A DNA stretch of 33,506 nt from Paracoccaceae bacterium (GTDB taxonomy: Bacteria > Pseudomonadota > Alphaproteobacteria > Rhodobacterales > Rhodobacteraceae). Under the pieces are notes generated by a model. It saw only the letters and a list, made by a program, of their open reading frames with translations. It searched no databases and was not told the DNA's origin. The DNA is taken from the NCBI GenBank assembly GCA_009920815.1, contig RFZH01000003.1, positions 1 through 33,506 on the forward strand, given 5' to 3'. Both the position numbers and the translations under genes were made by a program. Position 1 is the stretch's first letter. The number at the start of each line of letters is the position of its first letter. This document shows, piece after piece, positions 4,718-33,385 of the stretch.

Positions 4718-6157
4718 ATGGAAATGCCTATCCCAAGCGATTTTCGGATCGCACGTAAATCGGAACTTATGTCACGTCTTCGCGCGGTTTTGCCGCCCGA
4801 ATGTGTTATTGATGATCCCATGGAGACGCGCGCATACGAATGCGATGCGCTTTCGGCGTATCGCTGCGCGCCACTTGGCGTTGTGTTGCCCTACACAACC
4901 GAACAAGTTGCGACAGCGCTAAAGATTTGCTTCGAAATGGACATACCCGTTGTTCCGCGTGGCGCGGGAACATCGTTAGCGGGTGGTTCGTTGCCGACAG
5001 CCGATAGCATCATTTTGGGCGTCGCGCGCATGAATGACGTTCTTGAAACTGATTATGCCAATCGGTTTGTTCGTGTCCAAACGGGACGCACCAATTTATC
5101 GGTGACAGGCGCTGTTGAAGCGGACGGATATTTTTATGCACCTGATCCTTCGAGTCAGCTTGCCTGCGCCATTGCAGGGAATATTGCGATGAATTCAGGG
5201 GGCGCGCATTGCTTGAAATATGGTGTAACCTCTAACAATTTGCTAGGTGTGCGCCTTGTAACAATGCAGGGTGAGATTGTTGATATCGGCGGCGCACAGC
5301 TGGATGCCGCTGGCATGGATTTATTAGGGGTCATCTGTGGGTCCGAAGGCCAGTTAGGTGTCGTAACCGAAGCCACGTTGCGCATTTTGCACAAGCCAGA
5401 AGGTGCATTACCCGTTTTGATAGGCTTTGACAGTAACGAAGTCGCCGGGGCGTGTGTCTCAGATATTATTCGTGCGGGCGTGTTGCCTGTCGCCATCGAA
5501 TTCATGGACCGTCCATGTATCCGCGCGACCGAAGAATTTGCCAAAGCGGGGTATCCCGATTGCGAAGCTCTTTTAATCATCGAAGTTGAAGGCAGCCCAT
5601 TAGAAATTGAAGAGCAATTAGAAAAAATAATGTCCATCGCTGCGGCGCATGACCCTGTTGAAGTGCGGCGGGCAAATGACTCGGATGAAGCGGCCCGTAT
5701 TTGGTTGGGCCGCAAATCCGCTTTTGGCGCAATGGGCCAAATCAATGATTACATGTGCCTTGACGGGACCATACCTGTGTCCAAACTACCCTATGTTTTG
5801 CGGCGCATCGGTGAAATGAGCCAACAGTTTGGATTGGGTGTTGGAAACGTGTTTCACGCGGGTGATGGCAATATGCATCCGTTAATCTTATACAACGCAA
5901 ACGAACCAGGTCAGTTGGAATTGTGTGAACAATTCGGCGCAGAGATCCTCAAGCTTTGTGTCGAGGTCGGTGGTTGTTTAACTGGGGAACATGGTGTTGG
6001 TATCGAAAAACGCGACTTGATGGATCATCAATTTGCGCCCGATGATCTTGAGGCTCAGATGGCGATCAAGGATGTTTTCGATCCAAAATGGCTCTTGAAT
6101 CCGGCCAAGGTTTTTCCGTTGGCTGCGTCAGAACGCCGTCGCGATCAAGGTCTGTGA
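4718..6157 (+). CDS. glcD: Glycolate oxidase, FAD-binding subunit GlcD
   Basis: A 479-residue FAD-linked oxidase, the catalytic subunit that oxidises glycolate to glyoxylate at the inner membrane. The PCMH-type FAD domain includes PRGAGTSLAGG (about 80-90) and DPSSQLACAIAGNIAMNSGG (about 143-162). The C-terminal FAD-oxidase domain has HAGDGNMHP near residue 381 and GEHGVGIEK near 422, both typical of GlcD and D-lactate dehydrogenases. The length is normal for GlcD. GAGG lies six bases before the ATG and supports this start. glcE begins directly after the stop, and the glcDEF order makes glycolate the likeliest substrate, although D-lactate-type activity cannot be excluded from sequence alone. 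Confidence 0.95.
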   Translation: MEMPIPSDFRIARKSELMSRLRAVLPPECVIDDPMETRAYECDALSAYRCAPLGVVLPYTTEQVATALKICFEMDIPVVPRGAGTSLAGGSLPTADSIILGVARMNDVLETDYANRFVRVQTGRTNLSVTGAVEADGYFYAPDPSSQLACAIAGNIAMNSGGAHCLKYGVTSNNLLGVRLVTMQGEIVDIGGAQLDAAGMDLLGVICGSEGQLGVVTEATLRILHKPEGALPVLIGFDSNEVAGACVSDIIRAGVLPVAIEFMDRPCIRATEEFAKAGYPDCEALLIIEVEGSPLEIEEQLEKIMSIAAAHDPVEVRRANDSDEAARIWLGRKSAFGAMGQINDYMCLDGTIPVSKLPYVLRRIGEMSQQFGLGVGNVFHAGDGNMHPLILYNANEPGQLELCEQFGAEILKLCVEVGGCLTGEHGVGIEKRDLMDHQFAPDDLEAQMAIKDVFDPKWLLNPAKVFPLAASERRRDQGL

Positions 6158-6158
6158 G

Positions 6159-7256
6159 ATGGATTATCAACCAACGTCCGAAGCTGAATTGTCAGAGATT
6201 GTCAAAGCGACAACAAATCCGCTCGCCATTGTTGGTGGCGGTACGCGCCGTGCGCGCCCTGTCAAAGGTGATATGGTTTCAACTGCGGGGATTTCGGGTA
6301 TCGTAGATTATGAGCCAGGCGCCCTGACCATGGTTGCGCGTGCTGGAACGCCATTGTTCGAGATCGAAGCAACCTTGGCCAAAGAAAATCAGCAATTGGC
6401 GTTTGAACCATTAAGCTTGGCAGGCATTCTGGGATCGTCAGGACACAGTACAATAGGTGGCGTTTTTGCTGCAAACGCAAGCGGTTCGAGACGCATCCAA
6501 GCTGGTGCAGCGCGTGATTTTTTGTTGGGCGTTCGATTTGTTGATGGCGCTGGTAAGATTGTTAAGAATGGTGGTCGCGTGATGAAAAATGTTACCGGCT
6601 ACGACTTGGTAAAATTGCTTGCGGGCAGCTGGGGGACATTGGGAATCCTGAGTGAAGTATCGTTCAAAGTTTTGCCAATTTCTGATGTGTCAGCGACCTT
6701 GTCGATGAAAGCCGACGATCCAAAAACGGCGATCGACATTATGACCACCTGTATGAATACAGCATTTGATGTGACTGGTGCTGCTTATGATGCTGTTGCA
6801 GGATGTGTCTATATACGTATCGAGGGTTTTGAAAAATCAGTTGCCTATCGGTCAGGGGCTTTGCAGCAGATAGTATCAAAATTTGGGGCGGTCGATATAT
6901 TGGAAATGACCGCATCGCGTGCGGTATGGACGCAGATACAAAACCTATCCATGTTACAGAACCGAGACGGCGATCTATGGCGCGTGTCCGTTAAACCCAC
7001 AGATGGCGCAAATGTTGTGCATGCCATTTCACCCGATGCTTATGTTATGGACTGGTCTGGTGGTTCAATTTGGATGCGCGTGTCAAAGGGAATGGACGTG
7101 CGTGGTGCACTGGGTTCGATTGCTGGGCATGCAACCTGTTATGTCGGTGACGCAGCTATGTTTCATCCTGAACCCGAAAACGTGCGCGTGCTTACAGATG
7201 CAATCCGCAGAAAATATGATCCAAAGGCTATTTTGAACCAAGGATTGATGGGCTAA
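6159..7256 (+). CDS. glcE: Glycolate oxidase, FAD-binding subunit GlcE
   Basis: A 365-residue shorter FAD-binding protein homologous to the N-terminal half of GlcD. The PCMH fold is shown by LAIVGGGTRRARPVKG near residue 23, STIGGVFAANASGSRR (about 97-112) and RVMKNVTGYDLVKLLAGSWG (about 139-158), a GlcE signature. The C-terminus ends in the usual FHPEPENVRVLTDAIRRKYD...ILNQG, the short FAD-oxidase tail. It starts two bases after the glcD stop, and its last base is the first base of the glcF ATG (TAATG overlap), so translation is tightly coupled. It is needed for the GlcDEF complex; its separate catalytic role is not clear in the family. Confidence 0.94.
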   Translation: MDYQPTSEAELSEIVKATTNPLAIVGGGTRRARPVKGDMVSTAGISGIVDYEPGALTMVARAGTPLFEIEATLAKENQQLAFEPLSLAGILGSSGHSTIGGVFAANASGSRRIQAGAARDFLLGVRFVDGAGKIVKNGGRVMKNVTGYDLVKLLAGSWGTLGILSEVSFKVLPISDVSATLSMKADDPKTAIDIMTTCMNTAFDVTGAAYDAVAGCVYIRIEGFEKSVAYRSGALQQIVSKFGAVDILEMTASRAVWTQIQNLSMLQNRDGDLWRVSVKPTDGANVVHAISPDAYVMDWSGGSIWMRVSKGMDVRGALGSIAGHATCYVGDAAMFHPEPENVRVLTDAIRRKYDPKAILNQGLMG

Positions 7257-8578
7257 TGCAAACATTTTTCGAACCTGATCAATTGATTGATCCAGATTTC
7301 AAACGTTCTAATGAAATTTTGCGCGCCTGTGTCCATTGCGGTTTTTGTACGGCGACCTGTCCCACATATCAAGTGCTGGGCGATGAATTGGATAGCCCGC
7401 GTGGACGCATTTACTTGATCAAGGATATGTTGGAAAACAATCGTATCCCTGATGCCAAAACGGTGAAACATATTGATCGGTGTTTGTCCTGTTTGGCATG
7501 TATGACGACCTGTCCATCGGGTGTGCATTATATGCATTTGATTGACCACGCACGCGCATATGTGAACGAACATTATCAACGACCTTGGCATGATCGTGCT
7601 CTTCGATGGATCTTATCTCAGGTTATCCCTTATCCTACACGGTTTAGGGTTGCGATGCTGGCGGCTAAAATGGCGCGGCCCTTTGCGCGGCTCATACCTG
7701 ATGCGCGGTTGCGGGCCATGGTCTCAATGGCGCCAAAGCACATTCCGCCTGTAAGCCGGAATGACGATCCTCAAACGTTTCGCGCTGTTGGAAAAAAGAC
7801 AAAGCGCGTTGCATTAATGACGGGATGTGCCCAACGTGCGCTCAACACAGATATCAACGATGCGACCATCCGTGTCTTGCAACGGTTTGGTTGTGATGTT
7901 GTGATCCCCGAAGGACAGGGGTGCTGTGGCGCGTTAACGCATCACATGGGGCAGACGGAAAATTCGCATGCATCAGCAGCTGCAAATATTAAATCGTGGA
8001 TGACCGAGGTAAAGGGTGCTGGTTTGGATGCGATTGTTATTAATACCAGCGGGTGTGGCACGACGGTGAAAGACTATGGCCATATGTTTCGTGATACGCC
8101 ATTGGCGGCAGATGCGGCCATCATTTCAGGCTTGGCCAAAGATATATCCGAGGTGCTGATGGATCTTGATATTCCGCAAGTAGAACATAAAGATTTGGTT
8201 GTTGCCTATCACGCGGCCTGTTCATTGCAACATGGACAAAAAATTAAGGATCACCCCAAAACGCTATTGAAACGCACAGGCTTTCAGGTGGCGGAGCCGC
8301 GCGACCCTCATCTATGTTGTGGTTCCGCCGGTACGTATAATTTGTTGCAGCCTGAAATATCTGGTCAGTTGAAACTGCGAAAAGTTAAGACGCTTGAAGC
8401 GGTGCGTCCAGATATTATCTCTGCAGGTAATATTGGGTGCATGATGCAAATCGGATCAGGAACCGAGGTTCCTGTTGTCCATACTGTTGAACTGATTGAC
8501 TGGGCGACAGGCGGCCCAAAACCTGCTGCACTGGATCGTAAATTGACCAAAGGTCATCCTATCCCTAAATTGCGTTAA
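7256..8578 (+). CDS. glcF: Glycolate oxidase, iron-sulfur subunit GlcF
   Basis: A 440-residue iron-sulfur subunit that passes electrons from the flavin subunits to the membrane quinone pool. Two 4Fe-4S motifs are visible near the N-terminus: CVHCGFCTATCP (Cys25, 28, 31, 35) and CLSCLACMTTCP (Cys76, 79, 82, 86). The rest holds two CCG cysteine-rich domains, with GCCGALTHHMG in the first and CCGSAGTYNLLQ in the second, plus TGCAQ and HAACSLQHG. Length and layout match alphaproteobacterial GlcF. It closes the operon; no clear terminator follows before the protease gene 66 bases on. Confidence 0.95.
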   Translation: MQTFFEPDQLIDPDFKRSNEILRACVHCGFCTATCPTYQVLGDELDSPRGRIYLIKDMLENNRIPDAKTVKHIDRCLSCLACMTTCPSGVHYMHLIDHARAYVNEHYQRPWHDRALRWILSQVIPYPTRFRVAMLAAKMARPFARLIPDARLRAMVSMAPKHIPPVSRNDDPQTFRAVGKKTKRVALMTGCAQRALNTDINDATIRVLQRFGCDVVIPEGQGCCGALTHHMGQTENSHASAAANIKSWMTEVKGAGLDAIVINTSGCGTTVKDYGHMFRDTPLAADAAIISGLAKDISEVLMDLDIPQVEHKDLVVAYHAACSLQHGQKIKDHPKTLLKRTGFQVAEPRDPHLCCGSAGTYNLLQPEISGQLKLRKVKTLEAVRPDIISAGNIGCMMQIGSGTEVPVVHTVELIDWATGGPKPAALDRKLTKGHPIPKLR

Positions 8579-14255: not shown

Positions 14256-16388
14256 ATGTCAAAAGCGCCCAGTGATCAAAAAATAATTGAGGCTATCGAC
14301 AGGATTTCCCATCGGCGGCGTATGGACACCGTCCGTATTACGTCATGGTTTGTTATTTTCGTGGGCGTCGTTTGGGCATTTTTAGGCTTTGTTCTGGGCT
14401 ATCAAGCACTGATCTATATTGCATCGATTGCTGTTTTTGGATCGCTTGCTGCGACATTTCTGGTACAGACAAAATATAACCTGCTGGGCCGTTGCATTTG
14501 GATGCTGTCGGGCATGTTGGCGGTGTTTTTAGGCTGTTTTATCATACACCCTGCGGGTCAAGTGGATTACATGTTTTCGGCCATGGTTGGCGGGGCCTTC
14601 CTGATCTTTTCTTTAATAAAGGAAAGGCGCTATATCGTTATATTCGCACTTTTGGATATCGTGCTTTGGCTGGTGCAGTGGACCTTTCGTGATGACTTTA
14701 GTCAATTTAGGGTGATCGGCGAAGACGTAGCCAGACAGTACATTGTGGCAAGCTCGATGATGACGACATTTACGGTTATTATGATTGAGTTCGGCTATTT
14801 TGCCATGGTCGCCAATGAATATGCGTTAAATATTTTTCGTTCAAATTTACAGGCTGAGGCAGCTCTGAAAACAAAGTCTGCGTTTTTGGCAAATATGAGT
14901 CATGAAATCCGTACACCGATGAATGGCGTCGTTGGCATGATAGATATTTTTGAAACGAGTCCCTTGAACCAAGACCAACAGCGCACATTAAAAACGATGC
15001 GTGAAAGCGCCTATTCTTTGCTGGGCATTATCGATGATATTTTGGATACATCGAAAATAGAAGCAGGTCAGCTTAGTCTAACCGAGCGGCGTACAGAAAT
15101 GCTTTCGTCTATTGAAAGTGCGGTCGAAAGCATGGTGCCTTTTGCTGATAATAAGGGCGTTGTTTTGGCATTTGAATTTGATCCCGCTCTACCACGTTGG
15201 ATTTTGTGCGATAGCGGGCGCTTGCGCCAAATCATGTTAAACCTTGTTTCAAACGCCATAAAGTTTTCATCTCATGATGATCCTCAAAAGCTGGGCGAAG
15301 TGCGCATTTCTGTATTGCGGGTTTCTGAAACATCGTTCGAAATTCGTGTTGCAGACAATGGCATCGGTATCGAAGAAAAATCACGTGCGGGGATTTTTCA
15401 ACCGTTTGTGCAGTCCGAAGATCAAGAACAAGCAAGATATGGCGGAACTGGCTTGGGATTGACGATTGTAAAGCAGTTGGTTGAGTTAATGGGAGGCAAT
15501 ATTTCGTTTGAGAGTTACGTTGGTATTGGGACCACTTTCAATGTTATTTTACCCCTCAAAGACGCCGATGGCACAACACTTGTACCCGACCTAAGTGGTG
15601 TAAAAGTCTACGGCTTTGTCTTGCGTGCCAAAACCGCAGCAAATATCGCCAGATATATTCAAGCGTCTGGGGCAGAGTATATTCAGATTAATGCCGAAGA
15701 TAAGTTGAGCGACGTCATTAACGATCCAACCGGCAACAATATATTGCTAATTGGCTTGTCGGGCGATGATACAGCGGTGATGAATGAATTTGCCCGACAG
15801 GCGCAACTGCAATTTCCTGATTTGAAAATTTTAAGCTTTAGTGCGCATCGCAGCGATTTGATGACACAGGCAGTTGGTCAGCATAAGATCGTACAGTGGA
15901 AGCCTTTATTGCCCACAGATCTTTGGCGCGCGATCCAAGAAATTACGGGCCGCCTTGCGATAGAAATATTGAATTCGTCACAACATTCTTCAAGTGGTGG
16001 CGAGTTTCTGAAACCAAAAGCGACCCGAATTTTGGTCGCGGAAGACAACGAAATAAATAAAATCGTAATTGAAAAGCAGCTTACACAGCTTGGTTACCAG
16101 CCCAAAATCGTATCGGATGGTTTAGCAGCACTAGAAGAATGGACAACCGGCGAATACGACCTGCTTCTTTCGGATTGTCATATGCCGCGTTTAGACGGGT
16201 TTGGATTGTCTGAGAAAATACGCGCAATCGAATTCAAGGAAAACCGACATCGTTTGCCCATAATTGCCATTACTGCCAATGCTTTAATAGGCGAGGCCGA
16301 GCGGTGTTATGCAGCGGGTATGGATGATTATTTGTCAAAACCCGTAAAAATGTCCGAGCTCAAAGAAATGATTGAACGTTGGGAATAA
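14256..16388 (+). CDS. Hybrid sensor histidine kinase with two receiver-like domains
   Basis: A 710-residue membrane-bound hybrid kinase. About six hydrophobic segments fill residues 28-190 with no large periplasmic loop, so the signal is probably sensed in or near the membrane. The HisKA domain has the phosphoacceptor His216 in NMSHEIRTPMNG. The ATPase domain carries DNGIGIE and GTGLGLTIV. Residues about 450-585 resemble a receiver domain that has lost its phosphoacceptor (ILLIGLSGDD) but keeps a KP pair (QWKPLLP). A complete receiver follows from about 594 (RILVAEDNEINK) with Asp640 in SDCHMPRLDGF and Lys in DYLSKPVKM. No Hpt or DNA-binding domain is present, so a separate phosphotransfer partner is expected. 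The start has only a weak GAG binding site. Confidence 0.92.
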   Translation: MSKAPSDQKIIEAIDRISHRRRMDTVRITSWFVIFVGVVWAFLGFVLGYQALIYIASIAVFGSLAATFLVQTKYNLLGRCIWMLSGMLAVFLGCFIIHPAGQVDYMFSAMVGGAFLIFSLIKERRYIVIFALLDIVLWLVQWTFRDDFSQFRVIGEDVARQYIVASSMMTTFTVIMIEFGYFAMVANEYALNIFRSNLQAEAALKTKSAFLANMSHEIRTPMNGVVGMIDIFETSPLNQDQQRTLKTMRESAYSLLGIIDDILDTSKIEAGQLSLTERRTEMLSSIESAVESMVPFADNKGVVLAFEFDPALPRWILCDSGRLRQIMLNLVSNAIKFSSHDDPQKLGEVRISVLRVSETSFEIRVADNGIGIEEKSRAGIFQPFVQSEDQEQARYGGTGLGLTIVKQLVELMGGNISFESYVGIGTTFNVILPLKDADGTTLVPDLSGVKVYGFVLRAKTAANIARYIQASGAEYIQINAEDKLSDVINDPTGNNILLIGLSGDDTAVMNEFARQAQLQFPDLKILSFSAHRSDLMTQAVGQHKIVQWKPLLPTDLWRAIQEITGRLAIEILNSSQHSSSGGEFLKPKATRILVAEDNEINKIVIEKQLTQLGYQPKIVSDGLAALEEWTTGEYDLLLSDCHMPRLDGFGLSEKIRAIEFKENRHRLPIIAITANALIGEAERCYAAGMDDYLSKPVKMSELKEMIERWE

Positions 16389-19532: not shown

Positions 19533-20561
19533 ATGAAAATCGGAAATCGGGAAATCTCGGCGAACCATGCACCGCTGGTTATTGCGGAAATCGGTATTAA
19601 TCATGGCGGCGACCTAGAAGTTGCAAAGAATATGGTGCGCTTGGCCGCCGCGGCAGGTTGTGAATGTGTCAAACATCAAACACATATCGTCGAAGACGAA
19701 ATGACCAACGAAGCCAAATCAATTTTTCCGCCAAATGCAGATGTTTCAATTTGGGATGTTATGGCGCAATGCGCGTTGTCCTTGGACGATGAAGCAGAAT
19801 TAAAACGGTATACCGAAGAATTGGGTATGATTTGGATATCAACCCCGTTTTCAAGAGCAGCAGCAGATTTTCTAGAAGAGCTTGATGTGCCCGCCTACAA
19901 GATTGGTTCGGGTGAGGCCGACAATCTGCCATTAATCCGTCATATTGCCAAAAAAGGTAAGCCGGTGATTATGTCCACGGGCATGCAAAGCATCGATACG
20001 ATCCGTGCGAGCGTTCAGATATTAGAGGACGCAGGCACCGAATATGCCTTACTCGAATGTACAAATCTGTATCCTTCACCGCCCGAGATAGTCAGCCTGC
20101 AAGGTGTCACAGATTTGAAAAACGCGTTTCCAAATGCTGTCGTTGGATTTTCAGATCATTCCATCGGGCCCGAAATGGCCTTGGCGTCTGTTGCGCTTGG
20201 CGCATCTATTTTGGAACGGCACTACACAGATACGCGCTATCGTAAAGGACCAGACATATCATGTTCGATGGATCCTGCAGAGTTGCGATTTTTGATTGAT
20301 CGGTCGCGCGAAATTCACACTGCGTTGATGAACCCCAAACAACGGACCGGTCCCGAAGAAGATGTCTATCGGTTTGCACGTGCATCGGTCGTGGCGGATA
20401 AGGATCTTTCCGCCGGGAGTATCCTCACCGAGGCCGATATCTGGGCGCGCCGTCCCGGATCGGGCGAAATTGCTGGGTATGACTTTGATAAGGTTGTCGG
20501 AAAAACACTAAAAGTTTCAGTGCAACGCAATCAACAACTCAAATGGTCTGATTTCGAATAA
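19533..20561 (+). CDS. neuB: N-acetylneuraminate synthase family protein (NeuB-like)
   Basis: A 342-residue enzyme that condenses phosphoenolpyruvate with an N-acetylated hexose to form a nonulosonic acid. The NeuB TIM-barrel domain covers about 15-255, with AEIGINHGGDLEVAKNM, VKHQTHIVEDEMT, STPFSRAAADFLEEL, YKIGSGEADNLPLI, FSDHS and LERHYTDTRYRKGPDISCSM. A C-terminal SAF (antifreeze-like) domain spans about 280-340. From memory, several of these motifs are very close to Campylobacter NeuB1, which makes Neu5Ac, more than to legionaminic or pseudaminic acid synthases; this is suggestive only. AAGGA precedes the ATG. No neuA, neuC or epimerase gene is nearby; the neighbour is a broken phosphomannomutase gene, which also suggests a surface-sugar context. 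Confidence 0.85.
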   Translation: MKIGNREISANHAPLVIAEIGINHGGDLEVAKNMVRLAAAAGCECVKHQTHIVEDEMTNEAKSIFPPNADVSIWDVMAQCALSLDDEAELKRYTEELGMIWISTPFSRAAADFLEELDVPAYKIGSGEADNLPLIRHIAKKGKPVIMSTGMQSIDTIRASVQILEDAGTEYALLECTNLYPSPPEIVSLQGVTDLKNAFPNAVVGFSDHSIGPEMALASVALGASILERHYTDTRYRKGPDISCSMDPAELRFLIDRSREIHTALMNPKQRTGPEEDVYRFARASVVADKDLSAGSILTEADIWARRPGSGEIAGYDFDKVVGKTLKVSVQRNQQLKWSDFE

Positions 20562-26222: not shown

Positions 26223-27728
26223 TTAGGCGATTTTTGATGTCGTGCGACGTGCGTTTGAATAATTTTTGATCCATGTCGGGACTGACTGCGCTGGCATTGC
26301 TTTTGCAATTGCAAAGCCTTGAATTGCATCAACGCCTTGTCGCACCGCTTCGACCTGTTCTGCAATCGTTTCGATTCCCTCGGCAACGACCTGTAAATCC
26401 ATTTGATGTGCCATCGCGATCATAGCCGCCAAAAGTCGTTGCTGGCGTTCGTCTTGATCACAATTGGTCAGGAAGCTTCGGTCTATTTTAATCCGATGAA
26501 GCGTAAGATGGCGCAACGATGGGATCGAGGCATTTCCCGTTCCAAAATCATCTAGATCAATGCTGCAACCGATTTTTGCAAGCGACAAAATATTTTTGGC
26601 AATGATCGTGTCGGGGGATGAGACAATAACATTTTCAACGACCTCAAGGATCAGGTGTTTTGGATCAATACCTGCATTCACAAGATGCCACTTGATGCGC
26701 TTTGCCAAATTGGGGTCGTTTAGGTCGTCAACGCTTAGGTTAACGCTGACTGTCTCAACCGCCAGCCCTGCGTTGTTCCAGGTTTTCAAGGCGCATAGCG
26801 ACTGGGAAATCATATGATCTGTGAGCGCTGTCATCTGTCCCGAAGATTTCAAAACGTCCAGAAACTTCATCGGCGGTATGATCTTACCGGCAGATGTTGT
26901 CCAACGTGCAAGCGCTTCGAACCCTTTCACTTGGCCGGTAAAACCGCATATCTGGGGTTGGAAATGCGCTACGATTTCGCCACGATCAAGTGCCTTTTTC
27001 AGCTCGGGCGCAGTTGGTCTTTGGTCGAAGGATTTAACAGAACCCCCGCCTTGAGAGAAAAATCGTACTTGTCCAGCGCCTTGGTCTTGGGCGACTTTAT
27101 TGGCAACAATCGCCGCACGACACAGATCTTTTGACGAATTGACCACATCCATCTGTGTGTCGGCGATGCCAATTGTAATGCTGAAATAGTGTGGGCGTTC
27201 GCCGATTAATACGGCCGGATCCACCGCGCGCTGCAAACGTTCAGAAATCGAAAGAGTGGTGTTTATATCAAAAATTCCACGCATTGAAACGGCTATAAAG
27301 AAACGGTCATCTGCTGTGTACACCACTAAATCATCATGGCGCACGGCACTGGCCAGTCTGTCATAAATGGAAATGATTGCGGCTGTTTTAGTGGCTTTTG
27401 AATGTTTTTGCGCCCAAGCAGAGAACCCGTCAATTTCGATTGCGAATAAAATACATGGCGTATGAGCACCTATCGCAACCAGTGGGTCGAGATTTGTTAA
27501 CAGATAGGGTGTTGTGCGATATAGCTGACGACCCATGGTTGGCTGAGGTGGGCGCGGCTCGGACGCAATTAAAACGATTAGCGAGCCAATCGTTCCAAAA
27601 GCAAGTGCAAAGACTATTTCTGTGTTGATGGCCACAACCGAACACAACAGCGGTATTGTGACAATCGCCGTCCGTTTTGTATGATTTCGGACTTGCCCCC
27701 AAAGACGGTCCCGTAAAATATATGTCAT
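26223..27728 (-). CDS. EAL-domain protein with degenerate GGDEF, likely c-di-GMP phosphodiesterase
   Basis: A 501-residue protein with one or two N-terminal membrane segments (about 20-56). The GGDEF-like domain (about 90-225) carries TADDRF instead of GG(D/E)EF and is unlikely to make c-di-GMP. The EAL domain (about 245-490) keeps EAL at 271-273 (FEALARW), SVNLS, LEVVEN, DLDDFGTGNAS, KIDRSF, VVAEGIET and QGFAIA, so phosphodiesterase activity is likely. It would lower c-di-GMP and so favour motility over attachment. It sits between ttcA and yidC inside a housekeeping block, on the same strand, where I would not normally expect a signalling gene. The ATG is preceded by GGGG inside a hairpin. 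Confidence 0.9.
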   Translation of the reverse strand: MTYILRDRLWGQVRNHTKRTAIVTIPLLCSVVAINTEIVFALAFGTIGSLIVLIASEPRPPQPTMGRQLYRTTPYLLTNLDPLVAIGAHTPCILFAIEIDGFSAWAQKHSKATKTAAIISIYDRLASAVRHDDLVVYTADDRFFIAVSMRGIFDINTTLSISERLQRAVDPAVLIGERPHYFSITIGIADTQMDVVNSSKDLCRAAIVANKVAQDQGAGQVRFFSQGGGSVKSFDQRPTAPELKKALDRGEIVAHFQPQICGFTGQVKGFEALARWTTSAGKIIPPMKFLDVLKSSGQMTALTDHMISQSLCALKTWNNAGLAVETVSVNLSVDDLNDPNLAKRIKWHLVNAGIDPKHLILEVVENVIVSSPDTIIAKNILSLAKIGCSIDLDDFGTGNASIPSLRHLTLHRIKIDRSFLTNCDQDERQQRLLAAMIAMAHQMDLQVVAEGIETIAEQVEAVRQGVDAIQGFAIAKAMPAQSVPTWIKNYSNARRTTSKIA

Positions 27729-27782: not shown

Positions 27783-28655
27783 TTAACGCAGTTTGGGAAT
27801 ATCTATCGAATTTTCATCAAATTCGGCTGACCCAAGCTCTAGTCCCTTGAAATCGAAAATGCGATCATCCAACATGTGGGATGGACGAATATTCATCAGA
27901 GACCGAAACATGACTTGTCTGCGCCCAGGACGATTTTTTTCCCAACCATCCAAGATTTGTTTTACCTGTTGACGTTGCAGACCATCTTGAGATCCGCACA
28001 AATCACAGGGGATGATGGGATAGTTCATCGAACGCGCAAATTTTTCGCAGTCTTCTTCTGCTACAAAGGCCAGCGGTCGATAAACGAACAAATCACCTTC
28101 TTCGTTCACCAATTTGGGCGGCATTGTTGCCAACCGACCACCATGAAAGAGGTTCATGAAAAACGTCTCTAACATGTCGTCGCGGTGATGGCCCAAAACG
28201 ATCGCCGAACAGCCTTCTTCGCGTGCAATGCGGTATAAATGACCACGCCGTAACCGCGAACACAGCGAACAATAGGTACGCCCTTGGGGGATTTTGTCGA
28301 CAACGACAGAGTAGGTATCTTGATATTCGATGCGATGGGGAACGCCCATATCCTCAAGGAATTTGGGCAAAACAGTCGATGGGAATCCGGGTTGTCCTTG
28401 ATCCAAATTACAGGCCAATAGATCCACGGGCAAAAGCCCGCGCCACTTTAATTCGTATAAAACCGCCAACAGCGTATAACTGTCCTTTCCACCAGAAAGG
28501 CAGACCAACCAACGTGCATCCCGCTCGATCATACCGTATTGTTCAATCGCGTCGCGCACATAGCGGACAATCCGCTTGCGCAGCTTTTTGAACTCGGTCG
28601 TCGATGGTGCGCCGTGAAACAAGGGGTGAATGTCGTCTAGATCAGGCGTGTCCAT
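27783..28655 (-). CDS. ttcA: tRNA 2-thiocytidine(32) synthetase TtcA
   Basis: A 290-residue PP-loop ATPase that thiolates cytidine 32 in certain tRNAs using an Fe-S cluster. The PP-loop is [12 protein letters not shown] (about 48-59). [10 protein letters not shown] (about 132-141) and [11 protein letters not shown] (about 214-224) supply the conserved cysteines. [20 protein letters not shown] is a family signature. Length fits TtcA. It starts 13 bases inside the end of yidD, so the two overlap and are co-transcribed from the rpmH side. Confidence 0.94.
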
Positions 28656-28893
28656 GTGGGTCCTCTTTATTCACTTTCGGGACTGGGTCATATCCACACC
28701 CACCCAACGGATTACAGCGCGCAATGCGTTTTGCCGCCATCCAGCCCCCTTTTAGTGCGCCATGTTCTTGCAGCGCGTCCAGGGCATATTGGCTGCATGT
28801 CGGTTGATATCGACAGTTGTACCCAATCCATGGCGAGAAAACCAGTCGATAGGCTCGGACGGGCAGAGCCATTATGCGCGCCATGAGTTTCAT
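28642..28893 (-). CDS. yidD: Membrane protein insertion efficiency factor YidD
   Basis: An 83-residue small, membrane-associated protein that aids YidC-dependent insertion. The family core is complete: [20 protein letters not shown] with the cysteine pair, then [17 protein letters not shown] and [17 protein letters not shown]. Length is typical. Its start overlaps the rnpA stop by four bases, and its end overlaps ttcA by 14, consistent with one transcript from rpmH. Confidence 0.96.
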
Positions 28894-29297
28894 GGGCGCT
28901 GAATTGAATGTAGTTTTTGAAGTGCCAAGGTTGCGTCTTGGATCAGGCTATCGAAGTCTGCTTGTTCTGTGACCGTGTTACGTCCGACAAAGACGTAATC
29001 AAAACCAGCCTTTCCATGGCGCGTGACTACGGCTCTTGCTACTTCACGTAACCGGCGTTTTGCGCGATTACGGATCACTGCATTGCCAACCTTTTTGGAA
29101 CAGGTAAACCCAACACGCATTGTCGCATCATCATCGTTCCGCATGCGGGCCTGTACGAGCATACTGCGCATTGACTGGCGCAATGCCTTCGACGCAGCAA
29201 TAAAATCCGATCGTTTTTTTAGCACTTGGATATCAGACACAGAAAAAGACACCGCTTGCGAGGTATGAATTTCGTTCAGGATTTCCTGTGAAACCAT
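28890..29297 (-). CDS. rnpA: Ribonuclease P protein component
   Basis: The protein subunit of RNase P, which matures tRNA 5' ends with the RnpB RNA. The core [17 protein letters not shown] leads to [27 protein letters not shown], the RNR RNA-binding signature, and FDYVFVGRN. The start is uncertain: the track uses a TTG at 29333 with no binding site, eight bases after rpmH; I prefer the ATG at 29297 (135 residues), though its binding site is also weak, so coupling to rpmH translation is likely. Either way, the N-terminus is a little long for the family. Confidence 0.93.
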
Positions 29298-29341
29298 GCT
29301 CTCGTTAGCGGCGTCTTTTTTAATCTTCGCCAAAGCGGGCG

Positions 29342-29476
29342 TTACGCGCTAAGCGCTTTCCGGCCACGTGCACGACGTGCGTTAAGGATTTTGCGGCCTG
29401 CTTTAGTTGCCATACGCGCACGAAAACCGTGGCGACGTTTGCGAACGAGGTTCGATGGTTGATAGGTGCGTTTCAT
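29342..29476 (-). CDS. rpmH: 50S ribosomal protein L34 (absent from ORF track)
   Basis: Too short for the ORF track but clear on the minus strand: ATG at 29476, TAA at 29342-29344, 44 residues, reading [20 protein letters not shown] and ending GRKALSA. This is the complete, highly basic L34 of the large ribosomal subunit. Two GGAG elements lie within 16 bases upstream of the ATG. It is the first gene of the rpmH-rnpA-yidD-ttcA block, the classical order. Confidence 0.98.
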
Positions 29477-29746
29477 CGCTCCGACTCCGTAACTTTAAGG
29501 CGCAAAGAGATTCGCACCACATGTAAATCTAAGATGCCGCATCTAAGCGACAATTAGGCATAAGTCAAACCCGACAAGTGGGTTTCGCAACATTTTTGCC
29601 AGATTGAGGGCGGATTATTTCATCCTGTGTAAAAATACCAGCGTAAAATTCACAAACTTTGTATTTTCGATCACCCTGTCGTGAGCCTACTGTAAAAACA
29701 TCCGCTCGCAGTGCATTGTGTGCCTGCTTACATGTTTGGGAATGCT
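29477..29746. other. Divergent intergenic region between rpmH and TVP38 gene
   Basis: This 270-base gap, the largest in the window, carries the control regions of two divergent units. On the minus strand, a possible rpmH promoter is TTGACT (29563-29568) and TAGATG (29540-29545) with 17 bases between. Two dyads overlap it: AGATGC-C-GCATCT (29532-29544) at the -10 and AAACCC-N7-GGGTTT (29567-29585) at the -35. A third, ACAAA-C-TTTGT (29652-29662), lies nearer the TVP38 gene. No DnaA boxes, RNA gene or convincing small ORF was seen. Confidence 0.5.
29540..29568 (-). promoter_or_regulatory. Putative rpmH promoter
   Basis: On the minus strand, -35 TTGACT (29563-29568) and -10 TAGATG (29540-29545) are spaced by 17 bases, about 65 bases before the rpmH ATG. 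The -35 is close to consensus and the -10 is weak. It would drive the rpmH-rnpA-yidD-ttcA transcript. This is pattern evidence only. Confidence 0.45.
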
Positions 29747-30433
29747 ATGAAATATATACCACTTTTGATTATTGCAGTCGTTGCGATTGTTGGCGGCTTC
29801 TATTTTGCCGATTATCTTTCATTTGAAACGCTTGCGCAGCACCGCTACAGTTTGTTGGCCTTCAAAGAAACCTATTTCGGCGTGGCGGCATTGCTTTTTG
29901 TGTTTGTTTATTTTGTGATCGTTGCGTTTTCGTTGCCGGGTGCTGGCGTGGCGTCGATCACAGGTGGGTTTTTGTTTGGACTCGGGTTTGGCACAGTTTT
30001 GAATGTGGTCGCGGCGACGCTTGGGGCCTGTGCTATTTTCTTGGCGGTACGTACAGGGGTAGGGCGGTCTTTGGCAGCTAAGGTCGATACTTCCCAGGGG
30101 AAACTGGCAAATATGATGGCACGGATGCGCGACAATGAAATAAGCGTTTTGTTTTTGCTGCGTTTGGTTCCTGTTGTGCCGTTTTTCGTGGCGAATGTCC
30201 TTCCGGCATTGGTTGGTGTCGGTTTGCGTAACTTTGCATTTACTACGTTTTTGGGAATTATACCTGGTGGCTTGGTGTATACATGGATTGGCGTTGGGTT
30301 GGGCGATGTATTCGACCGTGGAGCATCCCCAGATCTTGGCCTCATTTGGTCGCCCCACATATTGGGTCCAATTCTAGGGCTCGCAATATTGGCGGCGGTG
30401 CCGATGCTTATCGGCAAGAAAGGACAATCATGA
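29747..30433 (+). CDS. TVP38/TMEM64 family membrane protein
   Basis: A 228-residue polytopic membrane protein of the SNARE-associated/DedA-like superfamily. Hydrophobic segments fill residues 3-23, 44-65 and 70-100, and the C-terminal third. Family marks are FSLPGAGVASITGGFLFG, the amphipathic FLLRLVPVVPFFVANVLPAL re-entrant segment and FLGIIPGGLVYTWIGVGLG. DedA-type proteins are linked to lipid flipping and membrane homeostasis; the role here is unknown. I start it at ATG 29747, with GGGA seven bases upstream, not at the GTG at 29711. Its stop overlaps the next start as ATGA, which joins it to the flavoprotein. Confidence 0.9.
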   Translation: MKYIPLLIIAVVAIVGGFYFADYLSFETLAQHRYSLLAFKETYFGVAALLFVFVYFVIVAFSLPGAGVASITGGFLFGLGFGTVLNVVAATLGACAIFLAVRTGVGRSLAAKVDTSQGKLANMMARMRDNEISVLFLLRLVPVVPFFVANVLPALVGVGLRNFAFTTFLGIIPGGLVYTWIGVGLGDVFDRGASPDLGLIWSPHILGPILGLAILAAVPMLIGKKGQS

Positions 30434-31848
30434 AAAAGATTACAACAGATCTGTTGGTCATCGGCGCAGGTTCTGGCGGGTTATCTGTGGCAGCGGGTGC
30501 CGTTCAGATGGGCGCGGATGTTACCTTGATCGAAGCCAACGAAATGGGCGGAGATTGTTTGAATTTCGGGTGTGTTCCATCCAAGGCACTGTTGTCGGCG
30601 GCAAAGCGCGCTTACATCGTTCAAAATTCTATCGCCTTTGGGGTAACTGCGGGGCATGTTAAAATTGATTACAGTAAAGCACAAAGCCATGTTCGCGATA
30701 CAATAGCGACAATATCCCCTCATGATAGCCAAGAACGGTTTGAAGGACTGGGCGTGCGGGTCATCCGCGCATTTGCACGATTTTCAGGCCGCCGAGAGGT
30801 TATTGCCGGTGATTACGCAATCACCGCGCGTCGCATTGTGATCGCGACCGGTGCGCATGCCGCTGTGCCACCTGTGCCCGGTTTGAAAGATGTGCCCTAT
30901 CTTACAAACGAAACTTTGTTTTCTATTGCCGTCGAACCAAGCCACTTGGTCATTCTTGGCGCAGGACCAATTGGTATGGAAATGGCACAAGCCCATGCGC
31001 GGCTGGGCGTGCGTGTCAGCATGATTGAAATGGCAAAATTTGGGGCAATGCTTGATCCAGATGCAGCGAGTATATTGCGTACCTCGCTTGAACGCGATTG
31101 GGTCGAGATTCATGACGAAATAGGCTTGACGTCGATCGAGAAGGTCGAAAATGGAATTTTGTGCCATTTGTCAGACGGCCGTTCAATTGAAGGGTCGCAC
31201 ATTCTTGTCGCAGCAGGGCGCAAGCCTAATCTAGAAGGGCTGGATTTAGAACGGGCGGGTATTCAATATGATGTTAAGGGTATAAAGGTCGACGCCGGTC
31301 TTAGGACATCTAATAAATCGGTCTATGCAATCGGCGATGTTGCTGGCGGCGCACAATTTACGCATGTGGCAGGTTATCATGCAGGCATCGTTATACGCTC
31401 CGCACTTCTTGGCTTGCCTGCCAAAGCGCGTACGGATGCGATCCCCTCCGTGGTTTACACAGACCCAGAAGTGGCGCAGGTCGGGTTGACCCTTGCACAA
31501 GCACGCGGCGAATATGGTGCACGTGCCGAAGAGGCAAGATTTGATTATGCGGGCAACGATCGCGCTATTGCAGAACGGAAAACCGAAGGTTTTGCCAAAG
31601 CGATTATCGCAGGCGGGCGCGTTGTGGGGGCAACCGTAGTTGGGCACCAAGCCGGCGAAATGATTAATTTTTGGACCTATATGGTGACCCACAAAGAAAA
31701 AATTAGCAAAGTCTCGGCGATGATTGCACCTTATCCGAGTTTGCATGAAATCAACAAAAGGGTGGCGGGGGCCTATTTTTCGCCACGTCTGTTTGATAGC
31801 GTTTGGGTAAAGCGCGTCGTTCGTTTTGTTCAAAAAAGGATTCCATAG
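30430..31848 (+). CDS. MerA-like FAD-dependent disulfide oxidoreductase
   Basis: A 472-residue class I pyridine nucleotide-disulfide reductase. The start at 30430 gives MKKITTDLLVIGAGSGGLSV; the ORF track extends it needlessly upstream inside the TVP38 gene. The FAD motif is GAGSGG (about 12-17), the redox pair Cys43/Cys48 is in GGDCLNFGCVPSK, the NAD(P)H motif is LGAGPIGMEMAQ and a second FAD motif is YAIGDVAGG. Near the end, PYPSLHEINKR has Tyr where lipoamide dehydrogenase has its catalytic His, so it is not Lpd. The mercury-binding C-terminal Cys pair and N-terminal HMA domain of true MerA are missing. The substrate is therefore unknown. It is coupled to the TVP38 gene by ATGA overlap. 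Confidence 0.9.
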   Translation: MKKITTDLLVIGAGSGGLSVAAGAVQMGADVTLIEANEMGGDCLNFGCVPSKALLSAAKRAYIVQNSIAFGVTAGHVKIDYSKAQSHVRDTIATISPHDSQERFEGLGVRVIRAFARFSGRREVIAGDYAITARRIVIATGAHAAVPPVPGLKDVPYLTNETLFSIAVEPSHLVILGAGPIGMEMAQAHARLGVRVSMIEMAKFGAMLDPDAASILRTSLERDWVEIHDEIGLTSIEKVENGILCHLSDGRSIEGSHILVAAGRKPNLEGLDLERAGIQYDVKGIKVDAGLRTSNKSVYAIGDVAGGAQFTHVAGYHAGIVIRSALLGLPAKARTDAIPSVVYTDPEVAQVGLTLAQARGEYGARAEEARFDYAGNDRAIAERKTEGFAKAIIAGGRVVGATVVGHQAGEMINFWTYMVTHKEKISKVSAMIAPYPSLHEINKRVAGAYFSPRLFDSVWVKRVVRFVQKRIP

Positions 31849-31851
31849 GTC

Positions 31852-33231
31852 ATGTTCAAAACCCTCTCAGGTCGGTTTTTGATTTTGACAATTGTCTTTG
31901 TCATGCTGGCTGAGGTGCTGATTTTCGTGCCGTCAATTGCGCGCTTTCGCTTGGATTACTTGAACGCGCGGATCGAAAGGGCACAGCTGGCTTCGCTTGC
32001 GCTGCTGGCAGATGACATGCTTTCACCCGAATTAGAGGCCGAGCTTTTGAACACAGCGGACGTCTACAACGTGGTTTTGATCCGCGATTCGGCGCGCCAA
32101 CTGGTGTTATCCTCTGATTTGCCGCAACCTGTCGCGCGCAGTTTTGACCTAAGAGACCCACAGCCGCTTGTTTTGTTGCGCGATACATTTGCACGCATTT
32201 TATCCCCGAATTTTGAGGTGATACGTGTCATTGGTATCCCCGCACAAGGGGCAGGTCAATTGATCGAAGTTACGCTGGGCACGCTTACATTGCGCGAGGC
32301 GATGTTGGACTATGGTTTGCGTATCTTGTGGCTTTCGGCTGTGATTTCGGTGATCACTGCTGCCCTTTTATTCGTGGCTGTTCGGATGATGATCGTACGC
32401 CCAATCAAGAGGGTAGCGCAGTCCATGGCAGATTATGCGCGCGCGCCTGATGATATCCGCCGTATCATCACGCCGAGCTCGTCTATTGTTGATATCTACC
32501 AAGCCGAAGCTGCCTTGGCTCAGATGCAAGGCGACCTACGTACATCACTTAAACAAAAACAAAGGCTTGCGACGTTGGGCGAAGGTGTCGCCAAGATTAG
32601 CCATGATTTGCGCAATATTTTATCCAGTGTGCAGCTTTTGTCAGATCGCCTAGAAGATAGCCAAGATCCAATGGTCAAACGCATGGCACCGCGATTGATT
32701 AAATCTGTATCACGCGCTGTATCCTTGACGGAAAATACACTTGCATTTGGACGGGTACAGGAACCGACCCCCCATCTAGAGCGGGTGGCCCTGAAAGCTA
32801 TTGTTGAAGATGTATTTTCCCAAGAAGAATTAGCGCTATCTGAGGGCGATAACATTCGTTTTGTCTGCGATGTGGGTTCATTGATCCTGCGCGTTGATCC
32901 TGAACATCTTTCAAGGATCTTGCAAAACATTGTTCGCAATGCGCGGCAGGCCATGCAGATCTCTGGGTGTGTCGGAACGATTTCTATCCGCGGAACCGAG
33001 GATGAGAACCAGTGGTCAATCACAGTCGTTGATGACGGTCCTGGTCTTTCTGATAAAGCCAAAGCAAACCTATTTCAGGCGTTTTCTGGCGGCACTAAAA
33101 AAGATGGTACTGGATTGGGGCTTGTGATCGCACAAGAGCTTGTTTCAGGGCATGGGGGTCAGCTGGAATTGGTGTCGTCAAATGTTGATGGAACCACGTT
33201 TAAGATATCCTTGCCCAAAACACTCGCATAA
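31852..33231 (+). CDS. Sensor histidine kinase, orphan
   Basis: A 459-residue membrane kinase. One membrane segment at about 8-30 and another at about 160-186 frame a periplasmic sensor region; a HAMP-like linker (RPIKRVAQSMADYARAP) follows. The phosphoacceptor His is in KISHDLRNILSSVQLL (near residue 251), the N box in NIVRNARQAM and the G boxes in DDGPGLSD and GTGLGLVIAQEL. The HisKA region is of the type with HDLRN rather than HELRT. Only three bases separate it from the flavoprotein gene, so the three genes form one operon. No response regulator is in the window; its partner may lie elsewhere. No clear terminator follows before the tRNA. Confidence 0.92.
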   Translation: MFKTLSGRFLILTIVFVMLAEVLIFVPSIARFRLDYLNARIERAQLASLALLADDMLSPELEAELLNTADVYNVVLIRDSARQLVLSSDLPQPVARSFDLRDPQPLVLLRDTFARILSPNFEVIRVIGIPAQGAGQLIEVTLGTLTLREAMLDYGLRILWLSAVISVITAALLFVAVRMMIVRPIKRVAQSMADYARAPDDIRRIITPSSSIVDIYQAEAALAQMQGDLRTSLKQKQRLATLGEGVAKISHDLRNILSSVQLLSDRLEDSQDPMVKRMAPRLIKSVSRAVSLTENTLAFGRVQEPTPHLERVALKAIVEDVFSQEELALSEGDNIRFVCDVGSLILRVDPEHLSRILQNIVRNARQAMQISGCVGTISIRGTEDENQWSITVVDDGPGLSDKAKANLFQAFSGGTKKDGTGLGLVIAQELVSGHGGQLELVSSNVDGTTFKISLPKTLA

Positions 33232-33308: not shown

Positions 33309-33385
33309 GGACCGATAGCTCAGCTGGATAGAGTACTTGACTACGAATCAAGGGGTCGGGGGTTCGAATCCTCCTCGGTCCGCCA
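33309..33385 (+). tRNA. tRNA-Arg(ACG)
   Basis: A 77-base tRNA with encoded CCA. The acceptor stem pairs GGACCGA (33309-33315) with TCGGTCC (33375-33381), followed by discriminator G and CCA. The anticodon arm is CTTGA-CTACGAA-TCAAG with anticodon ACG at 33343-33345, and the T arm has GGTTCGAATC. ACG is read as ICG after deamination by TadA and decodes CGU, CGC and CGA. It stands alone, with sensor kinase upstream and AT-rich DNA downstream. Confidence 0.97.

Follow-up and report, generated by a model that had tools for sequence, protein, structure and literature searches.

Introduction

In Rhodobacter sphaeroides, the sensor histidine kinase RSP_1056, renamed CenK, phosphorylates the response regulator CenR (RSP_0847) in vitro, and its periplasmic part contains no recognisable domain (PMC9275681). 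The Caulobacter counterparts are CCNA_00564 and CCNA_03859. CenR, which is unlinked to cenK in R. sphaeroides, governs Tol-Pal, division and envelope genes and is reported to be essential in both organisms; disruption of cenK in R. sphaeroides alters cell shape and raises the phospholipid content. Herein, we describe a three-gene operon at positions 29747-33231 of a 33,506-nt stretch of DNA from a Paracoccaceae bacterium (GCA_009920815.1, contig RFZH01000003.1; the whole stretch is referred to as the window). It encodes a TVP38-type DedA protein, a flavin disulfide reductase and a sensor kinase that we assign to CenK with great confidence.

The second family concerned is that of the COG0398 DedA proteins (TVP38/TMEM64), relatives of the TMEM41B/VMP1 scramblases. 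They are defined by a VTT domain that is without the acidic residues of the first re-entrant helix and keeps at most one of the two arginines of the second, a residue pattern that has been argued to exclude undecaprenyl-phosphate flipping and to favour phospholipid scrambling (PMC10127716). Scrambling is proposed for the bacterial subfamily and has been demonstrated only for the eukaryotic homologues. The reductase domains PF07992/PF02852 are the commonest fusion partners of COG0398 proteins in the same account, which mentions no linkage to a sensor kinase (PMC10127716).

Results

Organisation of the locus and identity of the kinase

The operon and its surroundings are arranged as follows.

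29747..30433, + strand: TVP38/COG0398-type DedA (VTT) inner-membrane protein, 228 aa (PF09335, alignment)
30430..31848, + strand: MerA/lipoamide-dehydrogenase-like FAD disulfide reductase, 472 aa (Pfam, NCBIfam, conservation, PDB alignments)
31852..33231, + strand: sensor histidine kinase, predicted CenK orthologue, 459 aa (Pfam, R. sphaeroides orthologue, conservation, AlphaFold2)
30430..30433, + strand: 4-nt overlap (ATGA) of the TVP38 stop and the reductase start (sequence)
31849..31851, + strand: 3-nt gap (GTC) from the reductase stop to the kinase ATG (sequence)
33309..33385, + strand: tRNA-Arg(ACG) just downstream of cenK (ARAGORN)
28642..29480, - strand: divergent rpmH-rnpA-yidD block, across the operon promoter region (conserved gene order)

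A preliminary description of this DNA had named the three proteins as DedA-like, disulfide reductase and histidine kinase and had tied their genes together by these two junctions. Both junctions were confirmed, and PF09335, Pyr_redox_2/Pyr_redox_dim and HisKA/HATPase_c were all matched above their cut-offs. From the sequence, translational coupling of TVP38 to the reductase through the ATGA overlap is likely. Since a tRNA-Arg gene follows, cenK is the final gene of the operon. Beyond the divergent rpmH-rnpA-yidD block lie ttcA, a GGDEF-EAL gene and then yidC (window annotation).

The kinase (P0003) has two transmembrane (TM) helices followed by HisKA and HATPase_c, with no recognised sensor domain, and no response regulator gene adjoins it at the locus. 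Its identity was assessed in a genome (G069) identified as that of R. sphaeroides by a 100% match to the reaction-centre L protein PufL. One protein of this genome was the sole close match (E 5e-147, next 2e-17; 55-56% identity), and its gene at C4:2814046-2815404 encloses position 2814885, where the Tn5 insertion HLM04 in RSP1056 was mapped (Chr1:2814885; PMC5442454). Because the only close match spans the published site in RSP_1056/cenK, the window kinase is almost certainly the CenK orthologue, and its regulator would accordingly be CenR, whose gene lies away from this locus. This overturns the preliminary description of a kinase without regulator, given that CenK phosphorylates CenR (PMC9275681), and a truly orphan kinase or a new system could be ruled out. 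In R. sphaeroides, a reductase gene (2815477-2816889) and a TVP38 gene (2816890-2817618) also lie directly upstream of cenK. By gene order and coordinates, and not by annotation, we infer that they are RSP_1057 and RSP_1058, respectively; the published accounts of CenK-CenR do not discuss them.

Conservation of the operon

A sample of 289 alphaproteobacterial genomes was searched for CenK (E<=1e-45) and for the reductase (E<=1e-90). CenK was found in 132 genomes and the reductase in 144; the two co-occurred in 113 (odds ratio 24, without correction for phylogeny). In 85 of these 113, the reductase gene lay just upstream of cenK on the same strand, the median gap of aligned ends being 105 nt. 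The flanks of 108 CenK loci, some of which end at contig ends, were then read: 26 from the family of the window and 82 from 66 other families. TVP38 and the reductase both stood beside cenK in 22/26 own-family and 48/82 other-family loci; among the latter, one partner only was present in 13/82, and TVP38 with no adjacent reductase was seen in 7/82. Counted by other family, both neighbours were found in 42/66, one in 10/66 and neither in 14/66. The full triad was carried by Ruegeria denitrificans, Roseibacterium persicicum, Salipiger marinus, Maliponia aquimaris, Hyphomicrobium, a Hyphomicrobiaceae metagenome-assembled genome (MAG) and Acuticoccus kalidii, and TVP38 with cenK and no adjacent reductase by Pelagibius marinus and Brevundimonas poindexterae. 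Lone cenK genes occurred in two Bradyrhizobium and one Afipia MAG, of which the Afipia and one Bradyrhizobium were on short contigs.

Spacing was tight between TVP38 and the reductase (stop to profile start: median 16.5 nt, all <=129 nt, 70 loci) and looser between the reductase and the kinase (median 77.5 nt). As controls in the 82 other-family loci, ttcA was near in 0/82, the GGDEF-EAL gene in 1/82, yidD in 48/82 and rnpA in 51/82. Among 23 loci away from the rpmH block, 8 retained the triad and 5 a single partner. The preliminary description had held that it would be refuted by TVP38 and reductase genes commonly separated, or by a kinase absent from the locus in relatives; this refutation failed, reductase and kinase being adjacent in 85/113 genomes. 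The close TVP38-reductase spacing and the recurrence in 42/66 other families go beyond chance, and a cenK operon conserved across many alphaproteobacterial families is very probable.

The preliminary description had also called for a search for fused TVP38-reductase proteins, and two single-frame fusions were found, of 715 aa (L180:4028-6172, +) and 832 aa (L181:4362-6857, -), both keeping C-x4-C and the Tyr described below. The genome with the former (G584) also has a separate cenK without these neighbours (L086). Adjacent TVP38 and reductase genes without any CenK were also seen outside the Alphaproteobacteria, in a different class of the same phylum (family f171, 2.3-2.5-Mb genomes; L191, L192, L193): the pairing predates the link to the kinase or is more mobile than that link.

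The TVP38 protein and the reductase

The TVP38 protein of the window matched PF09335 with 68.9 bits (cut-off 33.9). In an alignment of 51 homologues, R139, P145, N150, G170 and P173 were invariant, R139 being the one invariant Arg, and no acidic column was conserved at >=85%. With its VTT domain, the absence of conserved acidic residues and only one conserved Arg, which lies at the putative substrate site, the protein has the sequence pattern of COG0398.

The reductase (P0002) has the features of a class I pyridine nucleotide-disulfide oxidoreductase, namely PF07992, PF02852 and the redox pair C43-x4-C48, which is kept in 93-94/97 homologues. Tyr435, kept in 96/97, aligns with the His before Pro in lipoamide dehydrogenase (1ebd/2eq6) and with a Tyr in MerA (5x1y). 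As in the preliminary description, the redox Cys pair is retained, mercury-specific cysteines are missing (the protein ends in ...RFVQKRIP, without the C-terminal vicinal Cys pair of MerA), and Tyr replaces the catalytic His of lipoamide dehydrogenase; this last trait is real but not distinctive, given that MerA has Tyr too. NF004991 (FAD-containing oxidoreductase, PRK06370 group; 416 bits, cut-off 620) and TIGR01350 (lipoamide dehydrogenase; 322.2 bits, cut-off 408.8) were the best overall full-length profile matches, yet both stayed below cut-off. TIGR02053 (MerA), the second-best NCBIfam match, gave 333.2 bits against a cut-off of 454; the reductase resembles MerA in FAD, the C-x4-C pair and the Tyr, but has Pyr_redox domains only. 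Since the cut-offs of MerA, lipoamide dehydrogenase and PRK06370 were all missed, the reductase is, judged by its profile scores, a subfamily of its own without a curated name. The homologues keep a C-terminal tail that is basic and in part hydrophobic and that, as a guess, might bind the membrane.

The sensor region of CenK

CenK comprises TM1 (~8-27), a periplasmic domain (~28-152), TM2 (~153-178), HisKA with His251, and HATPase_c; no other Pfam match was found in the kinase. TM1 is its best-conserved region: the mean majority fraction was 0.77 there, 0.69 in the dimerisation and histidine phosphotransfer (DHp) region and 0.49 over the greater part of the periplasmic domain. In a 63-row CenK alignment, E21 was conserved at 98%, and T13, P27 and S28 at 100%. 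It is unusual for a sensor kinase that the TM1 region (residues 8-33) exceeds the kinase core in conservation; Glu21, which lies within the membrane, is nearly invariant. In the lone cenK copies of Bradyrhizobium (L207, L209), residues 21 and 28 are both Ala and residue 33 is Trp.

No conserved sensor Cys was found in the same alignment; the only common Cys, in DHp column 293 (54/63), is Thr in the window kinase, and Cys-based redox sensing by the kinase was rejected. The AlphaFold2 model of the periplasmic domain is a confidently predicted small alpha/beta fold (pLDDT 87.7, pTM 0.82) with no significant PDB fold match, the best being a sensor-kinase extracellular domain at E 0.079.

The regulator CenR

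The open reading frame at the published RSP_0847 position in G069 carries D11-D13, D51 and D56, matching the published CenR (PMC9275681). CenR was found in both congeners of the window's organism (G001/G002) with 76% identity, and the same search gave no match in G021, which is 91% complete. Among the stress regulons of R. sphaeroides, RSP_1058 is in the RpoHI list, RSP_1057 in the RpoHII list and cenR (RSP_0847) in both (PMC3441632).

Other genes in the window

The GGDEF-EAL protein (26223-27728, -), between ttcA and yidC, is near the operon in 15/26 own-family loci and 1/82 elsewhere. Two FAD_binding_4 proteins and a CCG/Fer4 protein in tandem (4718-8578, +) resemble the glycolate oxidase glcDEF operon. 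A hybrid histidine kinase of 710 aa with a receiver domain (14256-16388, +) is unrelated to CenK, and a NeuB/SAF sialic-acid-synthase-like protein of 342 aa (19533-20561, +) suggests nonulosonic acid synthesis close by.

Discussion

The explanation that accounts best for the locus overall, and which we hold to be somewhat probable, is a cenK operon in which CenK reads the lipid or membrane state, or TVP38 itself. TVP38 would shift phospholipids between the leaflets of the inner membrane, equilibrating them, and the reductase, as its redox companion, would spend NAD(P)H via FAD and keep a thiol/disulfide or quinone-like membrane partner reduced. TM1 of CenK (Glu21, Thr13, Pro27-Ser28), together with the small periplasmic domain, would respond to TVP38 directly or to the lipid or membrane condition that TVP38 sets, and CenK would then tune CenR. 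In outline, this would be a transporter-coupled kinase. In systems such as BceAB-BceS or Pst-PhoU-PhoR, a membrane transporter module informs the adjacent kinase; the logic proposed here is shared with them, but their modules have no sequence relationship to TVP38 or the reductase, and the coupling in our locus is a proposal. The parts of this explanation differ in strength. A functional coupling of CenK with its neighbours falls just short of an even chance in our estimate, and an input from TVP38 or lipid in particular is a tentative suggestion. That the ancestral partners deliver the CenK signal, with a COG0398 scramblase and a dedicated flavin reductase forming a membrane module read via TM1, so that the three proteins make up a sensor of lipid homeostasis peculiar to Alphaproteobacteria, is rather unlikely.

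A number of observations weigh against such coupling, and several of them would be expected if only expression or gene order were shared. On that explanation, the three genes would belong to an ancestral block beside rpmH with a common stress-responsive promoter, CenK would sense an unrelated signal (periplasmic glucans, the width of the periplasm or peptidoglycan), and TVP38 and the reductase would be parallel envelope-stress effectors. The frequency with which yidD and rnpA lie near cenK indicates that the rpmH block belongs to the same ancient neighbourhood, and their linkage is about as widespread as that of TVP38 and the reductase; synteny alone is no proof of function, and part of it may be plain conserved gene order. 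CenK has neither neighbour in 21/82 other-family loci, and the reductase occurs without CenK in 31 genomes. Lone-cenK loci preserve the TM1 motif just as well; the motif therefore characterises CenK as such, independent of its neighbours, and TM1 conservation as a mark of the TVP38 partnership was rejected. For Caulobacter, it has been proposed that CenKR becomes active when OpgH is depleted, and periplasmic volume was suggested as the signal (PMC11389396), and RSP_1057 and RSP_1058 are in RpoH regulons from whose lists cenK itself is absent (PMC3441632). The bin from which the window comes (G000, 84.5% complete) gave no CenR (best match 32% identity), likely as a result of incompleteness. The CenR motif TGA-N8-TGA occurs 23 times in the window against 21 expected and is absent from the upstream intergenic region, and CenR autoregulation through it was dropped. 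Set against an explanation by gene order, the tight same-strand spacing with the ATGA overlap exceeds what is expected of bystanders, at least for the TVP38-reductase pair, the triad or a pair persists in 13/23 loci away from the rpmH block, and TVP38-reductase fusions exist. We regard shared gene order or shared stress promoters as a serious alternative and the main rival, though less probable than the explanation given first.

The preliminary description had proposed instead that the kinase reports on a membrane redox process, such as quinone or thiol state, run by TVP38 and the reductase. The operonic partnership stands, and the near-universal Cys pair of the reductase, the singlet-oxygen tie of the RpoH regulons in which the R. 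sphaeroides genes are listed (PMC3441632) and the control by S. meliloti CenKR of SrlA, a thioredoxin-fold protein required for peroxide tolerance (PMC9561847), would suit a redox signal. The redox part is weakened by a sensor without conserved Cys in a kinase with only HisKA and HATPase_c matches, and by the loci of the Pelagibius and Brevundimonas type, in which TVP38 and cenK stand together with no adjacent reductase; we consider it improbable. Metal detoxification, with the reductase acting on mercuric or other metal ions, TVP38 as uptake or efflux partner and the kinase as metal sensor, draws on the MerA profile match, the alignment of Tyr435 with the MerA Tyr and the 'Detoxification' label of both R. 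sphaeroides genes (PMC3441632). The sub-cut-off score, the missing Cys pair, the absence of merR, merT and merP at the locus and the identity of the kinase as an envelope regulator make it very improbable, and mercury detoxification was rejected. Our preference is for a CenK that monitors the inner membrane, or the DedA/reductase module within it. A signal from the membrane or its lipids would suit CenK better than a redox reaction.

In a full-text search, with subscription papers outside its scope, CenK and DedA did not occur together in any paper, and the only papers that pair TVP38/TMEM64/CenR-type terms treat the topics separately; none that connects CenK with these neighbours came to light. 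We make no claim of priority for the link between CenK and its neighbours.

In many Alphaproteobacteria, the envelope regulator CenKR is essential or nearly so, and its signal is described as unknown in papers up to 2024. COG0398 DedA proteins are reported to be essential in Caulobacter and Dinoroseobacter, and their function is not known. The ancient shared operon links the two questions, makes the two conserved neighbours the first obvious candidates for what CenK watches, and offers an immediate genetic test.

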